A stretch of DNA of 64,000 nucleotides, from the NCBI GenBank assembly GCA_012729695.1, contig JAAYCP010000027.1, positions 1-64,000 on the forward strand, read 5' to 3'. Positions 12,429 through 26,293 of the stretch are shown here, in pieces. Source of the stretch: Actinomycetales bacterium (GTDB lineage: Bacteria; Actinomycetota; Actinomycetes; Actinomycetales; Dermatophilaceae). Below the pieces are notes generated by a model. The model did no database searches. It was given only the letters and a program-made list of their open reading frames with translations, and was not told where the DNA came from. The position numbers and the translations under genes are program-made. Each line of letters begins with the position of its first letter. The first letter of the stretch is position 1.

Positions 12429-13571
12429 TCAGAGGACGACGAGGTCGTCGCGGTGGACGACCACCCGCTCGTAGTGCGGGCCCAGCTCACGGGCCAGCTC
12501 CCGCGTCGATCGACCGAGCAGACGCGGCAGCTCCGTCGAGCTGAAGTTGACCAGGCCTCGGGCGACGACGTGGCCCGACGACGTGACCAGGTCGACCGGG
12601 TCACCCTCGGCGAATCTGCCTGCGACGTCGACGATGCCGGCCGGCAGCAGGGACTTGCGACGCTCCGTGACGGCAGCGACGGCGCCCTCGTCGAGGACCA
12701 GGCGGCCGCGAGCAGTGGTCGCGTGCGCGAGCCACCGCTTCCGGGAGGCCTTGGTCGCCGCGGCGGGGGCGAAGGCGGTCCCCACATCGTGACCGTGGAT
12801 GGCCCGCTTGACGTCGGGAAGGCGGGTCAGCACGGTGGGCACGCCGGCCGCGCCGGCGATGCCGGCCGCCTCGACCTTGGTCACCATGCCGCCGGACCCC
12901 ACCGCGGAGCCGGTGCCTCCGATGCGGATGGCCGCGAGGTCCTCCGGCGAGCCGACGAACGGCACCCTCGAGGTGCCCGGCTCGGAGGGTGGCCCGTCGT
13001 AGAGAGCATCGACATCGGTGAGGAGCACCATGCCGTCGGCACCGACGAGATCCGCGACGAGCGCGGCCAGCCGGTCGTTGTCACCGAACTTGATCTCGTC
13101 GGTGGCAACGGTGTCGTTCTCGTTGACGATGGGCACGATCCCGATCTCGAGCAGCCGCTCGAGAGTGCGCCGGGCGTTGACGTAGTGGGAGCGTCGGGTG
13201 ACGTCGTCGGCGGTGAGCAGCACCTGCCCGACGGTCAGGCCGTGGGTCGCGAAACGCTGCTGATAGGCGGCGATGAGAGCACCCTGCCCCACGGAGGCAG
13301 CCGCCTGCTGGGTCGCGAGGTCCCTCGGGCGCTGGGTCAGGCCCAACGGGCCCATACCGGCGGCAATGGCGCCGGACGAGACGAGGACGACCTGCTGCCC
13401 GGCGAGCCACCGAACCGCTAGGACGTCGACGAGTGCATGCAGTGCTTCCGGGTCGAGCTGGCCTCCAGCGACGGACGTGAGCGACGAGGACCCCACCTTG
13501 ACGACGATCCTGCGTCCCGTGGCCACGGCGGCACGGACCGCCGCCGCCTCCTCACTCATCGTCATCGGCAC
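12429..13571 (-). CDS. proB: Glutamate 5-kinase with PUA domain
   Basis: [13 protein letters not shown]...[25 protein letters not shown]. Confidence 0.95.
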
Positions 13572-15075
13572 TCACCCACTGTCCGGCACGTCGCTCGGCT
13601 GCCAGCTGCTCCCGCGCCTCGGCCTGGGCGTCCCTGCGCGCGTGGAACTCCTCGCGCTTCTCGGCGCGTGTCTTGCGGCTTGAGTCCTCGAGCCGCACAT
13701 CGGTCCCGCGTGGTCCGGAGAGGTGCTCCGCACCACCCATCAGCGTGGGCTCCCAGTCGAAGACGACGGCGTTGTCCTCCGGGCCGATGAGCACCGTGGA
13801 GCCGGCAACGGCACCAGCCGCGTAGAGGGCCTCTTCGACGCCGAGGCGCTGGAGCCGGTCGGCGAGGTAGCCGACGGCCTCGTCGTTGGAGAAGTCGGTC
13901 TGTCGGACCCACCGGGTGGGCCGCTCCCCCAGCACCCGGAACACCTCGCCGTCCGGTCCCTCCTCGCGCACGACCGTGAAGCCGCTGTCGTCGACCGCCT
14001 TGGGCCGCAGCACGACCCGAGGCGCCTCCACCACGGGCAGCTCCTCTCGGGCCTGCTCGACATGGCGGGCCAGCGCATACGTCAGCTCCTTGAGGCCGGT
14101 GTGCGCCACCGCTGAGACGATATGCACCTCGAGGCCGCGGGCCTCGAGGTCCGGCTTGACCATCTCGGCCAGCTCGCGCGCGTCGGGCACGTCGGCCTTG
14201 TTGAGGACGACGATGCGGGTGCGCTCCGAGAGGGGCTTGCCGCCCAGGGAGTCGTCCGGCACGTAGGCGGCGAGCTCGGACTCGATGACGTCGAAGTCGC
14301 TGAGCGGGTCGCGACCGGGCTCGAGCGTGGCGCAGTCGATGACGTGCACGAGGACGGAGCAGCGCTCGACGTGGCGGAGGAACTCCAGGCCCAGACCCTT
14401 GCCCATCGAGGCCCCGGGGATGAGCCCTGGGACGTCGGCGATGGTGAACCGCTGGGCGCCGGCCGTGACCACCCCGAGGTTGGGCACGAGGGTCGTGAAG
14501 GGGTAGTCAGCGATCTTCGGCTTGGCCGCCGAGAGCACCGAGACCAGGGAGGACTTCCCTGCGCTGGGGAAGCCGATGAGGGCGACATCGGCGAGCGACT
14601 TCAGCTCCAGGATGATGTCGGTGGACTCGCCGGGCTCACCGAGCAGCGCGAAGCCGGGCGCCTTGCGGCGGGGGCTGGCCAGGGCTTTGTTGCCGAGACC
14701 GCCGCGGCCGCCTCGGGCCGCGACGTAGGTCTGACCCGGCGCGACGAGATCGGCCAGGACGTTCCCGGCCCGGTCCTTGACGACCGTGCCGGCCGGCACG
14801 GGGAGGATGAGGTCGGCGCCGTCGGCGCCGTTGCGCTCGCCCCCGGCGCCGGGAGCGCCGTTCTGGGCCTTGCGGTGGGGCGTGTGGTGGTAGTCGAGCA
14901 GCGTCGTCACCTGCGGGTCGACCGTCAGGATGACGGAGCCGCCGCGGCCCCCGTTGCCGCCGTCAGGACCGCCCAGCGGCTTGAACTTCTCGCGGTGGAC
15001 CGAGGCCACTCCGTTGCCACCCTTGCCCGCGGAGACGTGCAGGATGACCCGATCGACGAAGGTGGCCATGTGCAT
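13552..15075 (-). CDS. obgE: GTPase ObgE/CgtA
   Basis: [52 protein letters not shown]1. Confidence 0.96.
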
Positions 15076-15153: not shown

Positions 15154-15187
15154 GTACCGGAACGTTCCTATTGTCACGTTCTTGTAC
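15154..15187. repeat. 34-bp palindromic element, solitary copy (4th copy in window)
   Basis: GTACCGGAACGTTCCTATTGTCACGTTCTTGTAC; same loop TCCTATTGTC as copies at 24183-24345. Confidence 0.85.
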
Positions 15188-15288
15188 GGGCTGGGCGCCT
15201 GGGTCGGGTTGGTGTCGGGTGGTGTTGGTCTGGCTGGTGTTGGTCTTGTGGTTATCGTGCGGGTGGTTTCACCCGGTCCGGGACGACG

Positions 15289-15323
15289 CGAGGGGCGGGC
15301 CGAAAGGTGGCCCGCCCCTCGCA
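15289..15323 (-). terminator. Terminator downstream of rpmA
   Basis: GCGAGGGGCGGGCC GAAAGGT GGCCCGCCCCTCGC, 14-bp perfect stem. Confidence 0.8.
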
Positions 15324-22078: not shown

Positions 22079-22114
22079 GGGCGGGGATCCGGGCGGGGAT
22101 CAGGGCGCGGATCA
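22079..22114. repeat. 12-bp tandem repeat x3 at the 3' end of the TIGR03960 gene
   Basis: GGGCGGGGATCC / GGGCGGGGATCA / GGGCGCGGATCA. Confidence 0.7.
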
Positions 22115-24097
22115 GGACTCGGCCGGGGCGTAGCGCTGCGCGTCGGGACGGATCACGGTGAGCGGGAGAAGCGTCTTGCCGGTGGGGCCGATCTCGATCT
22201 CGGTGCCCATCTGAGGGCACACACCGCAGTCGAAGCAGGGCGTCCAGCGGCAGTCCTCGACCTCGGTCTCGTCGAGGGCGTCCAGCCAGTCCTGCCAGAG
22301 CCACTCCTTGTCGAGCCCGGAGTCGATGTGGTCCCACGGCAGGACCTCGGTCTCCTCACGCTCGCGCGTCGTGTACCAGTCGACGTCCACACCGAACTCC
22401 GCGAGCGCCGTTGCCGCGCAGGACATCCAGCGCTCGTACGAGAAGTACTCGGACCACCCGTCGAAGCGGCCGCCGTCGCGCCACACGGCCTCGATGACGC
22501 GGCCGACCCGGCGGTCGCCCCGGGAGAGCAGTCCCTCGATGATGCCGGGCTTGCCGTCGTGGTAGCGGAAGCCGATGGCCGAGCCGTACCGGCGGTCGGA
22601 GCGGATCGCCTCGCGCAGCTTCTCCAGGCGGGCGTCGGTCTCGTCGGCGCCGAGCTGGGCGGCCCACTGGAACGGGGTGTGCGGCTTGGGGACGAAGCCG
22701 CCGATGGAGACGGTGCACCGGATGTCCCGGCGGCCGCTGACCTGCCGGCCCGTGTCGATGACCCGCTTGGCGAGCTCCGCGATCTGGAGCACGTCCTCGT
22801 CGGTCTCGGTCGGGAGACCGCACATGAAGTACAGCTTCACCTGACGCCAGCCGGCGCCGTACGCAGCCGCGACGGTCCGGATGAGGTCGTCCTCGCTCAC
22901 CATCTTGTTGATGACCCGGCGGATCCGCTCGCTGCCGCCCTCCGGCGCGAAGGTGAGCCCGGAACGGCGCCCGTTGCGGGTCAGCTCGTTGGCGAGGTCG
23001 ATGTTGAAGGCGTCGACGCGCGTCGACGGCAGTGACAGGCCGGTGTTCGTGCCCTCGTAGCGGTCGGCGAGACCCTTGGTGATCGTCGCGATCTCGGAGT
23101 GGTCCGCGCTTGAGAGGGAGAGCAGACCGACCTCCTCGAAGCCGGTCGCCTGCAGCCCGCGCTCGACCATCTCACCGATTCCGGTGATGGAGCGCTCCCG
23201 CACCGGCCGGGTGATCATCCCGGCCTGGCAGAACCGGCAGCCCCGGGTGCAGCCGCGGAAGATCTCGACCGACATCCGCTCGTGGACCGACTCGGCCAGC
23301 GGGACGAGCGGCTGCTTCGGGTACGGCCAGGCGTCCAGGTCCATGACCGTATGCTTCGCGACCCGCCACGGGACACCGGACCGGTTCGGGGCGACCCGCT
23401 TGATCCGGCCGTCGGGCAGGTAGTCGACGTCGTAGAAGGCCGGCACATAGACCCCGCCGGTCTGCGCGAGCCGCATGAGAAGCTCCTCGCGGCCCCCCGG
23501 GCTGCCCTCAGCCTTGTGCTCGGCGACGATGTCGGTCACCGCGAGCACGGCCTCCTCGCCGTCGCCGACGATCGCGGCGTCGATGAAGTCGGCAACCGGC
23601 TCGGGGTTGAAGGACGCATGGCCACCGATGATGACGATCGGGTCCCCGTCGGTGCGATCGCGCGCGTGCAGCGGGATGCCCGCGAGGTCGAGGGCCGTGA
23701 GCATGTTCGTGTACCCCAGCTCGGTCGAGAAGGAGATCCCGAACAGGTCGAAGTCACGCACGCTACGGTGCGCGTCCACGGTGAGCTGCGGGACCCCCGC
23801 CGCACGGAGCTCGGCCTCGAGATCCGGCCACACCGCATATGTCCGCTCGGCGAGGGCGTCAGGACGCTCGTTGATCACTTCGTAGAGGATCATGACGCCC
23901 TGGTTGGGCACACCGACCTCGTAGGCGTCGGGGTACATCAGAGCCCACCGCACGGTGAGCTCCTCACCGCCTGGACCGAAGCCGCCGATGTTCCAGTCCT
24001 TGACGGTCGAGTTGAGCTCGCCGCCGACGTACTGGATCGGCTTGCTCACCCGCGTCAGCAGCGGCTCGAGCTCGTGGAATCGGGACTGGCCAGGCAT
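22112..24097 (-). CDS. TIGR03960 family B12-binding-domain radical SAM protein
   Basis: IFRGCTRGCRFCQAGMITRPVRERS radical SAM Cx3Cx2C; SKPIQYVGGELNSTVKDW. Confidence 0.94.
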   Translation of the reverse strand: MPGQSRFHELEPLLTRVSKPIQYVGGELNSTVKDWNIGGFGPGGEELTVRWALMYPDAYEVGVPNQGVMILYEVINERPDALAERTYAVWPDLEAELRAAGVPQLTVDAHRSVRDFDLFGISFSTELGYTNMLTALDLAGIPLHARDRTDGDPIVIIGGHASFNPEPVADFIDAAIVGDGEEAVLAVTDIVAEHKAEGSPGGREELLMRLAQTGGVYVPAFYDVDYLPDGRIKRVAPNRSGVPWRVAKHTVMDLDAWPYPKQPLVPLAESVHERMSVEIFRGCTRGCRFCQAGMITRPVRERSITGIGEMVERGLQATGFEEVGLLSLSSADHSEIATITKGLADRYEGTNTGLSLPSTRVDAFNIDLANELTRNGRRSGLTFAPEGGSERIRRVINKMVSEDDLIRTVAAAYGAGWRQVKLYFMCGLPTETDEDVLQIAELAKRVIDTGRQVSGRRDIRCTVSIGGFVPKPHTPFQWAAQLGADETDARLEKLREAIRSDRRYGSAIGFRYHDGKPGIIEGLLSRGDRRVGRVIEAVWRDGGRFDGWSEYFSYERWMSCAATALAEFGVDVDWYTTREREETEVLPWDHIDSGLDKEWLWQDWLDALDETEVEDCRWTPCFDCGVCPQMGTEIEIGPTGKTLLPLTVIRPDAQRYAPAES

Positions 24098-24182
24098 CCA
24101 TCCAGGGTATGCGCCGCGTCGGAGCAGCCCAAATGTCACCTTCCGCCTCGGGCTGGGTGGGTGGTTGGGCGGGCGGGCTGGC

Positions 24183-24345
24183 GTACCAGAACCTTCCTAT
24201 TGTCACGTTCTGGTACGGCTGCGAGCTGGCGCGGGCCAGGCGGGCGTACCAGAACGTTCCTATTGTCACGTTCTGGTACAGGCTCCGGCCGCGGGAGCGC
24301 GCCGGGCGGGCGTACCAGAACGTTCCTATTGTCACGTTCTGGTAC
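24183..24345. repeat. Three tandem copies of the 34-bp palindromic element (24183-24216, 24246-24279, 24312-24345)
   Basis: GTACCAGAACGT-TCCTATTGTC-ACGTTCTGGTAC; copies 2 and 3 identical with perfect 12-bp stems, copy 1 has one change. Confidence 0.95.
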
Positions 24346-24370
24346 AGGCTCCGGCGCGCCAGACGCAGAC

Positions 24371-24403
24371 GTGGGGCCCACCGCCACGAGCGGTGGGCCC
24401 CAC
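24371..24403 (-). terminator. Terminator downstream of fadD-like gene
   Basis: GTGGGGCCCACCGC CACGA GCGGTGGGCCCCAC. Confidence 0.75.
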
Positions 24404-24439
24404 GTTCCGCGCCGCCGGCCGTGCCGGGGTCAGGCGCGA

Positions 24440-26293
24440 CTAGTTGTGGTAGTGCGCGTCCAGGATGTCCTGGTACTTCTCGGCGACGACCTTGCGCTTG
24501 AGCTTCATGCTCGGCGTCAGCTCGCCCTCCTCGATGGTCAGGTCCTTGTCGAGGATGGTGAAGCGCTTGATCTGCTCCCAGCGGTTCAGACCCTTGTTGA
24601 GCTCGTCGATGTAGCCCTGGACCATCTCGCGCACCTCCGGGGAGGTGACGACCTCGGCGTAGGACTTGTCGGCCATGCCGTGCTGCTCGGCCCAACCCTG
24701 CATCGCCTCGGGGTCGAGGGTCACCAGGGCGGAGACGAACTTGCGGTCCGCGCCGTAGACGACGAGCTGGGCGGCGTAGGGGCAGACACCCTTGAACGTC
24801 GACTCGATCGTCGAGGGGGCGACGTACTTGCCACCGCTGGTCTTGAAGAGGTCCTTCTTGCGGTCGGTGAGCCGCAGGAAGCCGCGCTCGTCCAGCTCGC
24901 CGATGTCGCCGGTGTGGAACCAGCCGTCGGGGTCGAGGACCTCGGCGGTGGCCTCCGGGTTGTTGTGGTAGCCCTGCATGACGCCCTCGCCACGCAGGAG
25001 CACCTCACCGTCATCGGCGATCTTGACCTCGGTGCCGGGCAGCGGCCAGCCGACGGAGCCGATCTTCAGTGCCCACGGACGACCCACGAACGAGGCAGCG
25101 GTGGTCTCGGTGAGGCCGTAGCCCTCGAGGATCGGCAGGCCCATGCCGTAGAACCACTTGGCGATGTCGTGGTTGAGGGCCGCCGAGCCGGAGATGAACA
25201 TACGCACGCGCCCACCGAAGCGCTCGCGGATCTTGGTCCCGATGATCTTGTCGGCGATCTTGTGCTGGACCGCCAGCAGGCCGCTGGGGCTCTTGTTCTC
25301 GGAGGCCAGCTCGGCCACCTTGGCACCCACCTCGGAGGCCCAGGAGAAGAGCTTGTGCTTGATGCCGCCCTCTTCCTCCATCATCATGCCGATGCGCGCG
25401 TACACCTTCTCGAAGATGCGCGGGGCGGCACCCATGAAGGTGGGCCGGACGACCGCGAGGTTCTCGACGATCTTGTCGACCCGACCGTCGATAGCCGTGG
25501 GGAAGCCGACCTGCATCGGGAAGGTGAGGAGCACCTTGCCGAAGACGTGGGCCAGGGGCAGCCAGAGGAACTGCACGTCGTCGGGGTTCGAGATCCCCAT
25601 GGCGGTGATCGCGGCGGACTCGTAGGTCCAGGTGCTGTGCAGGAGGCGGACACCCTTCGGGCGACCGGTCGTGCCGGAGGTGTAGATGATCGTCGCCAGG
25701 TCAGAGGGCTTGACGTTGTCGATCCGGGCGTCGACGACGCCGGGCTCGCCGGCCAGCAGCTCACGACCGAGGTCGGCGAGCTCCTCGAAGGAGATGACCC
25801 AGTCACCGTCGGTCGCGCCGTCGATGACGACGACCTTGCGCACCGAGGGGATCTGGTCCTTGATCCCGCGCAGCTTCTCGACCTGCTCGTCGTTCTCGGC
25901 GAAGACGACCTGCGTCTCGGAGTCCTGGAGGATGAAGGCGACGTCGTCCGAGATGGTGGTCGGGTAGATCGTCGTGGTCGCGGCACCGGCGCACATGTTC
26001 GCCAGGTCGGCCAGCGCCCACTCGACCCGGGTCGCCGAGGCGATGGCGACGCGCTGCTCGGCCTCGACACCGAGGGAGATGAGTCCGGCGCTCAGCGCGT
26101 AGACCTTCTCGCGGGTCTCGGCCCACGTCATGGTCTGCCACTGCTCGTTGGCGTCGGGGTACATGTAGGCCGGGCCGTCGGGGGTCTGCGCCACTCGGTC
26201 CCGGAAGAGGTGACCGACGCTCTGGTAACGGCTGGTCAGCAGGCTCTCGTCGAACTTCTCATCGGAGGGAACCAAGATCTGTTGTGCGGGCAT
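24440..26293 (-). CDS. Long-chain fatty-acid-CoA ligase (FadD15-like AMP-dependent synthetase)
   Basis: TIIYTSGTTGRPKGVRLLHS; LPILEGYGLTETTAA; GWFHTGDIGELDERGFLRLTDRKKDL. Confidence 0.94.
   Translation of the reverse strand: MPAQQILVPSDEKFDESLLTSRYQSVGHLFRDRVAQTPDGPAYMYPDANEQWQTMTWAETREKVYALSAGLISLGVEAEQRVAIASATRVEWALADLANMCAGAATTTIYPTTISDDVAFILQDSETQVVFAENDEQVEKLRGIKDQIPSVRKVVVIDGATDGDWVISFEELADLGRELLAGEPGVVDARIDNVKPSDLATIIYTSGTTGRPKGVRLLHSTWTYESAAITAMGISNPDDVQFLWLPLAHVFGKVLLTFPMQVGFPTAIDGRVDKIVENLAVVRPTFMGAAPRIFEKVYARIGMMMEEEGGIKHKLFSWASEVGAKVAELASENKSPSGLLAVQHKIADKIIGTKIRERFGGRVRMFISGSAALNHDIAKWFYGMGLPILEGYGLTETTAASFVGRPWALKIGSVGWPLPGTEVKIADDGEVLLRGEGVMQGYHNNPEATAEVLDPDGWFHTGDIGELDERGFLRLTDRKKDLFKTSGGKYVAPSTIESTFKGVCPYAAQLVVYGADRKFVSALVTLDPEAMQGWAEQHGMADKSYAEVVTSPEVREMVQGYIDELNKGLNRWEQIKRFTILDKDLTIEEGELTPSMKLKRKVVAEKYQDILDAHYHN

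Follow-up and report, generated by a model that had tools for sequence, protein, structure and literature searches.

The window analysed here (the whole stretch of 64,000 nucleotides) contains four copies of a 34-bp palindrome at two loci. A single copy of the form GTACCGGAACGT-TCCTATTGTC-ACGTTCTTGTAC lies at 15154-15187 (plus strand), between its upstream neighbour rpmA (ribosomal protein L27; 15372-15629, minus strand; PF01016) and its downstream neighbour, the obg/cgtA GTPase gene (13552-15075, minus strand; PF01018). The other three copies (24183-24216, 24246-24279 and 24312-24345, all on the plus strand) form a head-to-tail array. This array is preceded by an AMP-binding (acyl-CoA ligase) gene (24440-26293, minus strand; PF00501) and followed by a gene for a radical SAM/B12-binding protein (22112-24097, minus strand), of which the start is uncertain (the ORF opens at 24139). 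Ordinary long hairpins are also present after rpmA (15287-15321) and after the AMP-binding gene (24368-24404); they are terminator-like, have no T run and stand outside the palindrome family.

When the window was searched with the pattern TCCTATTGTCACGTTCT, four matches were obtained against 0.02 expected, which confirmed the four hairpin copies listed by the first-pass annotation. All have the GTACCAGAACGT-TCCTATTGTC-ACGTTCTGGTAC form (at 15154, 24183, 24246 and 24312). As had been described, copies 2 and 3 of the array are perfect palindromes with a 12-bp stem, both identical to the consensus, and copy 1 carries one stem substitution (AACGT to AACCT). Copies 2 and 3 also have a common flank (aggctccggc), and thus the element and its flank were duplicated in tandem as the array expanded.

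The genome-wide search proposed by the same annotation was carried out in the source draft genome (G000; 3.04 Mb in 310 contigs) and gave about 101 copies in 55 loci with 1-9 copies each; the backward-pattern control gave none. Further copies were found in related species (see below). The loop is TCCTATTGTC in 78 copies, TCCTATTGGC in 16, TCCAATTGTC in 5 and another sequence in 2. Stems are perfect in 39 copies and have one mismatch in 43, and 30 copies are identical to the consensus. The core element of 34 bp is preceded by C (-1) and followed by G (+1) in nearly all copies, giving a unit of approximately 36-38 bp, and positions -2 and +2 are always G or C. A given half-site variant may turn up in the left or in the right arm, mostly without its counterpart in the other; spread of an active palindromic form, followed by decay of the copies, would produce this pattern.

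The arrays of G000 consist of head-to-tail copies with a unit of 44-96 bp that includes flanking DNA, and therefore they grow by tandem duplication. A CRISPR-like array might be suspected from a 34-bp palindromic repeat with a period of about 65 bp (63-66 bp in several arrays, e.g. the nine units of contig C290). However, the spacers within an array are near-copies of one another, which refutes this reading; moreover, the period ranges from 44 to 96 bp and the copies occupy 55 separate loci, about half of them single copies. We give a CRISPR-like array practically no chance.

Many G000 contigs terminate in palindrome arrays (e.g. C5, C19, C61, C72, C73, C182, C290 and C308), so that about 101 copies is probably an underestimate; such repeats also break draft assemblies of this genus. 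A diverged hairpin on C61, CCCCACCAGAACGTGCCACCTGGCACGTTCTTCC, has AGAACGT/ACGTTCT in common with the family and a different centre, and is possibly a relic. Lone half elements (TTGTCACGTTCTGGTAC and GTACCAGAACGTGAC) were seen next to whole ones on C42 and C298. Upstream of the C222 array, a half element resembling the version of a second genome, G066 (GCGCCACAACCTGACA), adjoins G000-type copies, which suggests that an older version was replaced at this one site.

Nearly all of the 55 loci in G000 are intergenic. Gene 3' ends are favoured, with a median distance of 44 nt to a stop codon versus 100 nt to a start, and in gaps between codirectional genes the element is nearer the upstream stop in 14 of 17 cases. 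Some copies lie between divergent genes. The first-pass annotation had placed the copies, all in one orientation, between a gene terminator and the next minus-strand gene. Both window loci do show this arrangement behind a terminator-like hairpin, but genome-wide the orientation is independent of transcription (11 versus 6, no bias).

A smaller number of copies is found within genes, where they sit in dispensable protein loops. The type III PKS gene contains an in-frame element encoding VPERDNRNVLV, and the SelO gene contains two in-frame copies. The RNase H/histidine phosphatase fusion has an element in its linker in three species, with three species-specific sequences. One G066 gene with an in-frame element shows a net gain of seven residues (+21 bp) compared with its closest relatives in G093 and G000. 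The type III PKS copy was considered as a clean single-base empty site and rejected, as the surrounding loop is too variable.

These positions bear on whether the palindrome acts at the RNA level, as a bidirectional terminator or a 3' mRNA stabiliser. The hairpin is very stable (-18 to -31 kcal/mol; z about -6.5 to -7.4) and gene 3' ends are preferred, both of which speak for such a role. However, there is no orientation bias and no T run, both window loci already have ordinary terminator-like hairpins, and copies are found in coding sequence, between divergent genes and in arrays. The earlier suggestion of a protein-binding RNA hairpin is not supported by the same orientation data, nor by the presence of copies inside genes on either strand. 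An RNA-level element is thus considered very unlikely, and the palindrome looks like a mobile DNA repeat of REP/RPE type rather than an mRNA signal, although it may have a secondary RNA effect.

Among 188 genomes of the family, the motif is carried only by three of the four species of this genus. The generalised motif GTNCNNNAACNTNNCNATTRNNANGTTNNNGNAC gave 100 matches in G000, 36 in G066, 8 in G093 and 0 in G020, and none in the remaining 184 genomes of the family. A narrower pattern, run on 395 genomes sampled across the order, revealed no additional carriers, and order-wide covariance and pattern searches gave no true match outside the genus; a single match in G421 was rejected because the motif is absent there and its genome contains no pattern matches. 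The strict consensus matched nothing in GTDB-named genomes or IMG/VR. A relaxed pattern matched DUPF01 (Intrasporangiaceae bacterium AS08sgBPME_284), apparently identical to G093, among the GTDB-named genomes and nothing in IMG/VR; one clostridial match, lacking the long stem, was rejected as chance. There was no Rfam match at the sites, and the earlier statement that no named family has this sequence holds for Rfam and the literature searched. On these searches, the palindrome family is confined to a single genus of sludge actinobacteria (Intrasporangiaceae/Dermatophilaceae).

When the three carrier species were compared, their stems were found to differ: GTACCAGAACGT in G000, GTCCAGCAACCT in G093 and GTGCCACAACCT in G066. 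The complete G093 version is GTCCAGCAACCT-TCCTATTGTC-AGGTTGCTGGAC and that of G066 is GTGCCACAACCT-GGCAATTGCC-AGGTTGTGGCAC, with the loop GGYAATTRCC. The element ends are cGTAC...GTACg, cGTCC...GGACg and cGTGC...GCACg, and the three versions have a common half-site skeleton, cGTnCnnnAACnT (per arm, C-GTnCnnnAACnT). Between G000 and G093, five of the 12 stem pairs are altered on both sides (31 cells versus 14.6 in shuffles). The invariant loop proposed from the window is indeed kept between these two species, but it is replaced in G066, and G000 itself has minority loops. Likewise, the proposed compensation in the stem is seen between species only; within the window, the copy at 15154 has two non-compensatory substitutions (G-T and C-T). 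From the window alone, neither the variability of the loop nor the species-specificity of the stems could be fully appreciated.

At the orthologous site of the 15154 copy, the element is absent from G020, G066 and G093, and for both window sites no copy of this family was found in these three genomes where the gap is comparable. Of about 36 sites in G066, 6 coincide with an element in the orthologous region of G000; the Poisson probability of this overlap is 0.0006-0.007, if 2000 or 1200 gaps are assumed to be available. The six coincident sites weigh against the reading favoured below, which would have to explain them by ancestral insertion plus homogenisation or by hot spots of insertion. 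No excess of direct repeats indicating target-site duplication was found around G000 and G066 elements beyond z of about 2.5 (90 length/offset settings). As a separate observation, the orthologues of the array site (24097-24440) contain sigma-factor-like and anti-sigma-like genes in G066 and G093, with none in G000 and G020, and the G093 orthologue has a degenerate copy of the second G093 palindrome family at the same place.

Some of these features would also suit a functional double-stranded DNA binding site that is not mobile, serving a nucleoid or chromosome organiser or an AbiEi-like regulon, with the symmetric arm changes reflecting altered protein specificity. The half-site skeleton GTnCnnnAACnT is conserved in both arms, the same variants appear in either arm, some sites are common to species, and AbiEi proteins bind inverted repeats (PMC7319586). 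A static site is nevertheless difficult to reconcile with head-to-tail arrays with duplicated flanks, in-frame copies within genes, replacement of the stem across a whole family between species, and the finding that most sites are not common between species. In addition, wholly different palindromes lie beside a homologous gene in other genera (see below). We regard a non-mobile binding site as improbable. The REP-like or non-autonomous mobile palindrome put forward by the first-pass annotation is supported: the element is abundant, differs in sequence from species to species, forms tandem arrays, prefers gene 3' ends, has in-frame copies within genes and is restricted to one genus.

The same annotation had proposed looking for an associated RAYT/TnpA-REP transposase, and no such gene was found: the RAYT model (PF01797, Y1 transposase) gave no match in G000, G093, G020 and G066, drafts that are 94-100% complete, while control genomes were positive. 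Among 307 flank proteins, neither a recurring gene family nor a recurring transposase family was observed beside the elements. Since no neighbour family recurs, the candidate partner described below was visible only through one gene, the sole case noted in the G000 element loci retrieved of a single gene with an element site on either side.

This gene, the only DUF559 gene of G000 (C298:4601-5440), is bracketed by inverted copies identical to the consensus, with a further one-mismatch copy downstream. Its G066 orthologue has the upstream copy, and the contig stops 22 bp past the gene. In G093, a DUF559 gene whose locus is unrelated lies between inverted copies of a different 34-bp palindrome, CCGCCATAACTTCGCAATAGCGAAGTTATGGCGG, which is dispersed in the G093 genome. 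A second G093 DUF559 gene is bracketed by inverted double-hairpin copies, of which the downstream one is degenerate. All 11 of 11 proteins have an AbiEi-like N-terminal part. The C-terminal part is a Vsr-like DUF559/REase_MTES_1575 nuclease domain in which Y-D-G...H residues are conserved (consensus EYDGRxH); the structure of an endonuclease-like relative, 3hrl, has been solved. A DnaA-box-like sequence, TGTGGATAA, was noticed 37-49 bp before the start of the AbiEi-DUF559 gene in six Micrococcales members and 134 bp upstream in G066a; G000 C298:4601-5440 and G093 C210 are among the loci where it was noted. In the sampled DNA it is otherwise very rare: 50 kb of Arthrobacter ERGS1:01 contains a single occurrence (beside the DUF559 gene), and the window contains none.

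Relatives of the gene in other genera were taken from plasmid-collection records. In Tsukamurella tyrosinosolvens, palindromes of one family lie on both sides of the gene, with orientation weakly resolved; this palindrome occurs in 18 places in that strain, plus one unrelated weak match. Arthrobacter StoSoilB13-1 also has palindromes on both sides with orientation weakly resolved (37 places, in that strain only), and in Arthrobacter ERGS1:01 the two flanking copies have the same orientation and the downstream one is interrupted (22 places). The StoSoilB13-2 gene has a palindrome upstream only (11 places), and the Nonomuraea palindrome, present in at least 40 places, is about 1.7 kb from the DUF559 piece. 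The bracketing palindromes differ in sequence between genera, each being dispersed essentially only in its own strain. The PLSDB plasmid records NZ_LR134451-NZ_LR134468 and NZ_LT559118.1 resemble pieces of chromosome (serS, gatA, purB, pks13) and are apparently mislabelled; one plasmid-labelled PLSDB record is an 11.85-Mb Nonomuraea sequence.

By an automatic criterion, strong palindromes were present on both sides of 3 of 16 DUF559 genes and 0 of 144 control genes (Fisher p about 8e-4). When inspected copies were accepted, the number of two-sided genes rose to 6 of 16; ERGS1:01, StoSoilB13-1 and G093b were counted as two-sided by sequence inspection, one copy of each being under the automatic threshold. 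A figure of 5 of 11 two-sided genes is a looser comparison than 3 of 16. Inverted two-sided flanks are clear for the G000 and G093a genes. The flanking palindrome is a dispersed family in five strains and there is none in G020, a set of genomes too small for a copy-number correlation. On plasmids of Geobacillus and Sutcliffiella, the genes for short DUF559 proteins have no matching palindromes on their two sides, and the DUF559 matches in IMG/VR are weak. In a phage record from a faecal scaffold (MT837503.1), a DUF559-like ORF ends near a 53-bp near-perfect palindrome (AGTGGCAGGCTTCGACCGGTATC...GATACCGGTCGAAGCCTGCCACT, centre 1898). The literature searched contained no relevant paper connecting DUF559 with REPs, RAYTs or palindromes.

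Not every gene and palindrome are associated in this way. DUF559 genes without flanking palindromes are Tsukamurella 2-4, G066b, G093c and those of G020, and the G093 copies of the G000-type family have no adjoining DUF559 gene. Both observations count against a partnership with the nuclease. In favour of it, G020, with its unflanked DUF559 genes, has no palindrome family above two copies in 400 kb. The genes without palindromes would suit a mobile REP-like palindrome whose transposase (Y1/RAYT or DDE) is lost, unassembled or still to be recognised, with DUF559 as an incidental neighbour; CGTC REPs are known without a dedicated transposase (PMC3733652), and G000 is a draft of 310 contigs. Against this stand the absence of PF01797 from all four genus genomes, the lack of a recurring transposase family among the 307 flank proteins, and the finding, beyond chance, that DUF559 genes from several genera, at loci unrelated to one another, lie between copies of the palindrome that is dispersed in the same strain. 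We consider such a different transposase, with DUF559 as an incidental neighbour, unlikely, though a serious competitor.

In its behaviour the element is REP-like, yet it is outside the known REP families. Similar to GTAG REPs and REPINs, it is a palindrome of 20-40 bp with high copy number and species-specific sequence, mostly intergenic near 3' ends and found in tandem clusters (PMC2817692, PMC3733652). RAYT genes are described as always having two inverted REPs at their sides, co-evolving with them and predicting REP abundance (PMC2817692), and the candidate partner gene here similarly lies between two inverted palindromes that match the dispersed family of its genome. In contrast to GTAG REPs, the elements carry no terminal GTAG (GTRG) tag and there is no Y1 transposase, the candidate partner being an AbiEi-DUF559 PD-(D/E)XK protein. 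Their arrays are head-to-tail, unlike the head-head pairs of REPINs. The host differs too: it is an actinobacterium, and the main text of the 2013 REP survey (PMC3733652) never uses the word Actinobacteria.

Two further classes, the CGTC REPs and the Rickettsia palindromic elements (RPE-4 and RPE-6), resemble the element in having no known transposase and in having in-frame copies in unrelated genes, and the G093 version starts with CGTC. However, CGTC REPs have an 8-9 bp stem, a 4-5 nt loop, an AT stem start and an unpaired CCA tail (PMC3733652), whereas the present palindrome has a stem of 12 bp or more around a 10-nt centre, lacks a tail, and in two of its three species has CGTA or CGTG at the 5' end. 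Bacterial MITEs are likewise small non-autonomous palindromic repeats with an intergenic preference, but the present elements are much shorter, no target-site duplication was detected and no related IS was found among the flank genes. As for the protein, the N-terminal half of the candidate partner matches models of AbiEi, the antitoxin of the AbiE type IV toxin-antitoxin system. In contrast to AbiE, no toxin partner gene is evident beside the DUF559 gene at the annotated loci seen, the C-terminal half is a Vsr-like nuclease, and palindromes are present on both sides and genome-wide.

The repeat family itself is well supported. With regard to its origin, we slightly favour a REP-like DNA palindrome that multiplies within the genomes of one genus with the AbiEi-DUF559 protein as partner enzyme; the case for the palindrome-nuclease partnership is one of association, drawn from a small sample of bracketed genes. 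The wider proposal, that AbiEi-DUF559 proteins of actinobacteria are the enzymes of REP-like systems unrelated to RAYTs, each spreading or maintaining its own palindrome family, is advanced more tentatively, at a little under even chances. According to the partnership model, the AbiEi-like domain would recognise the palindrome, either in its cruciform state or folded into a hairpin where the DNA is single-stranded at the fork, the nuclease domain would cut it, and repair would copy the element to new sites and homogenise the family within the species. PD-(D/E)XK and Vsr-type enzymes hydrolyse DNA with no covalent intermediate, so the element would spread via break repair or gene conversion rather than by classical transposition. 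To our knowledge, no PD-(D/E)XK enzyme acts alone as a transposase, which is a point against the partnership. The promoters of AbiEi-type proteins contain inverted repeats to which these proteins themselves bind (PMC7319586, PMC3985639), and by analogy the candidate partner could recognise the palindrome; the same activity could account for the upstream copy without mobility and to that extent counts against the partnership.

Few bacterial repeats are as common as REP sequences. The REP partner enzymes described in the literature covered are HUH tyrosine transposases, and the CGTC and RPE classes have none. If the proposed partnership is true, several actinobacterial families would have a second, unrelated gene family lying between genome-specific palindromes, and REP-like repeats would be explained in a phylum absent from the 2013 REP survey. 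The orphan nuclease family DUF559/MTES_1575 would gain a function, REP populations could be driven by a nuclease without a covalent DNA intermediate, and the spread of RAYT-less REPs would become directly testable.
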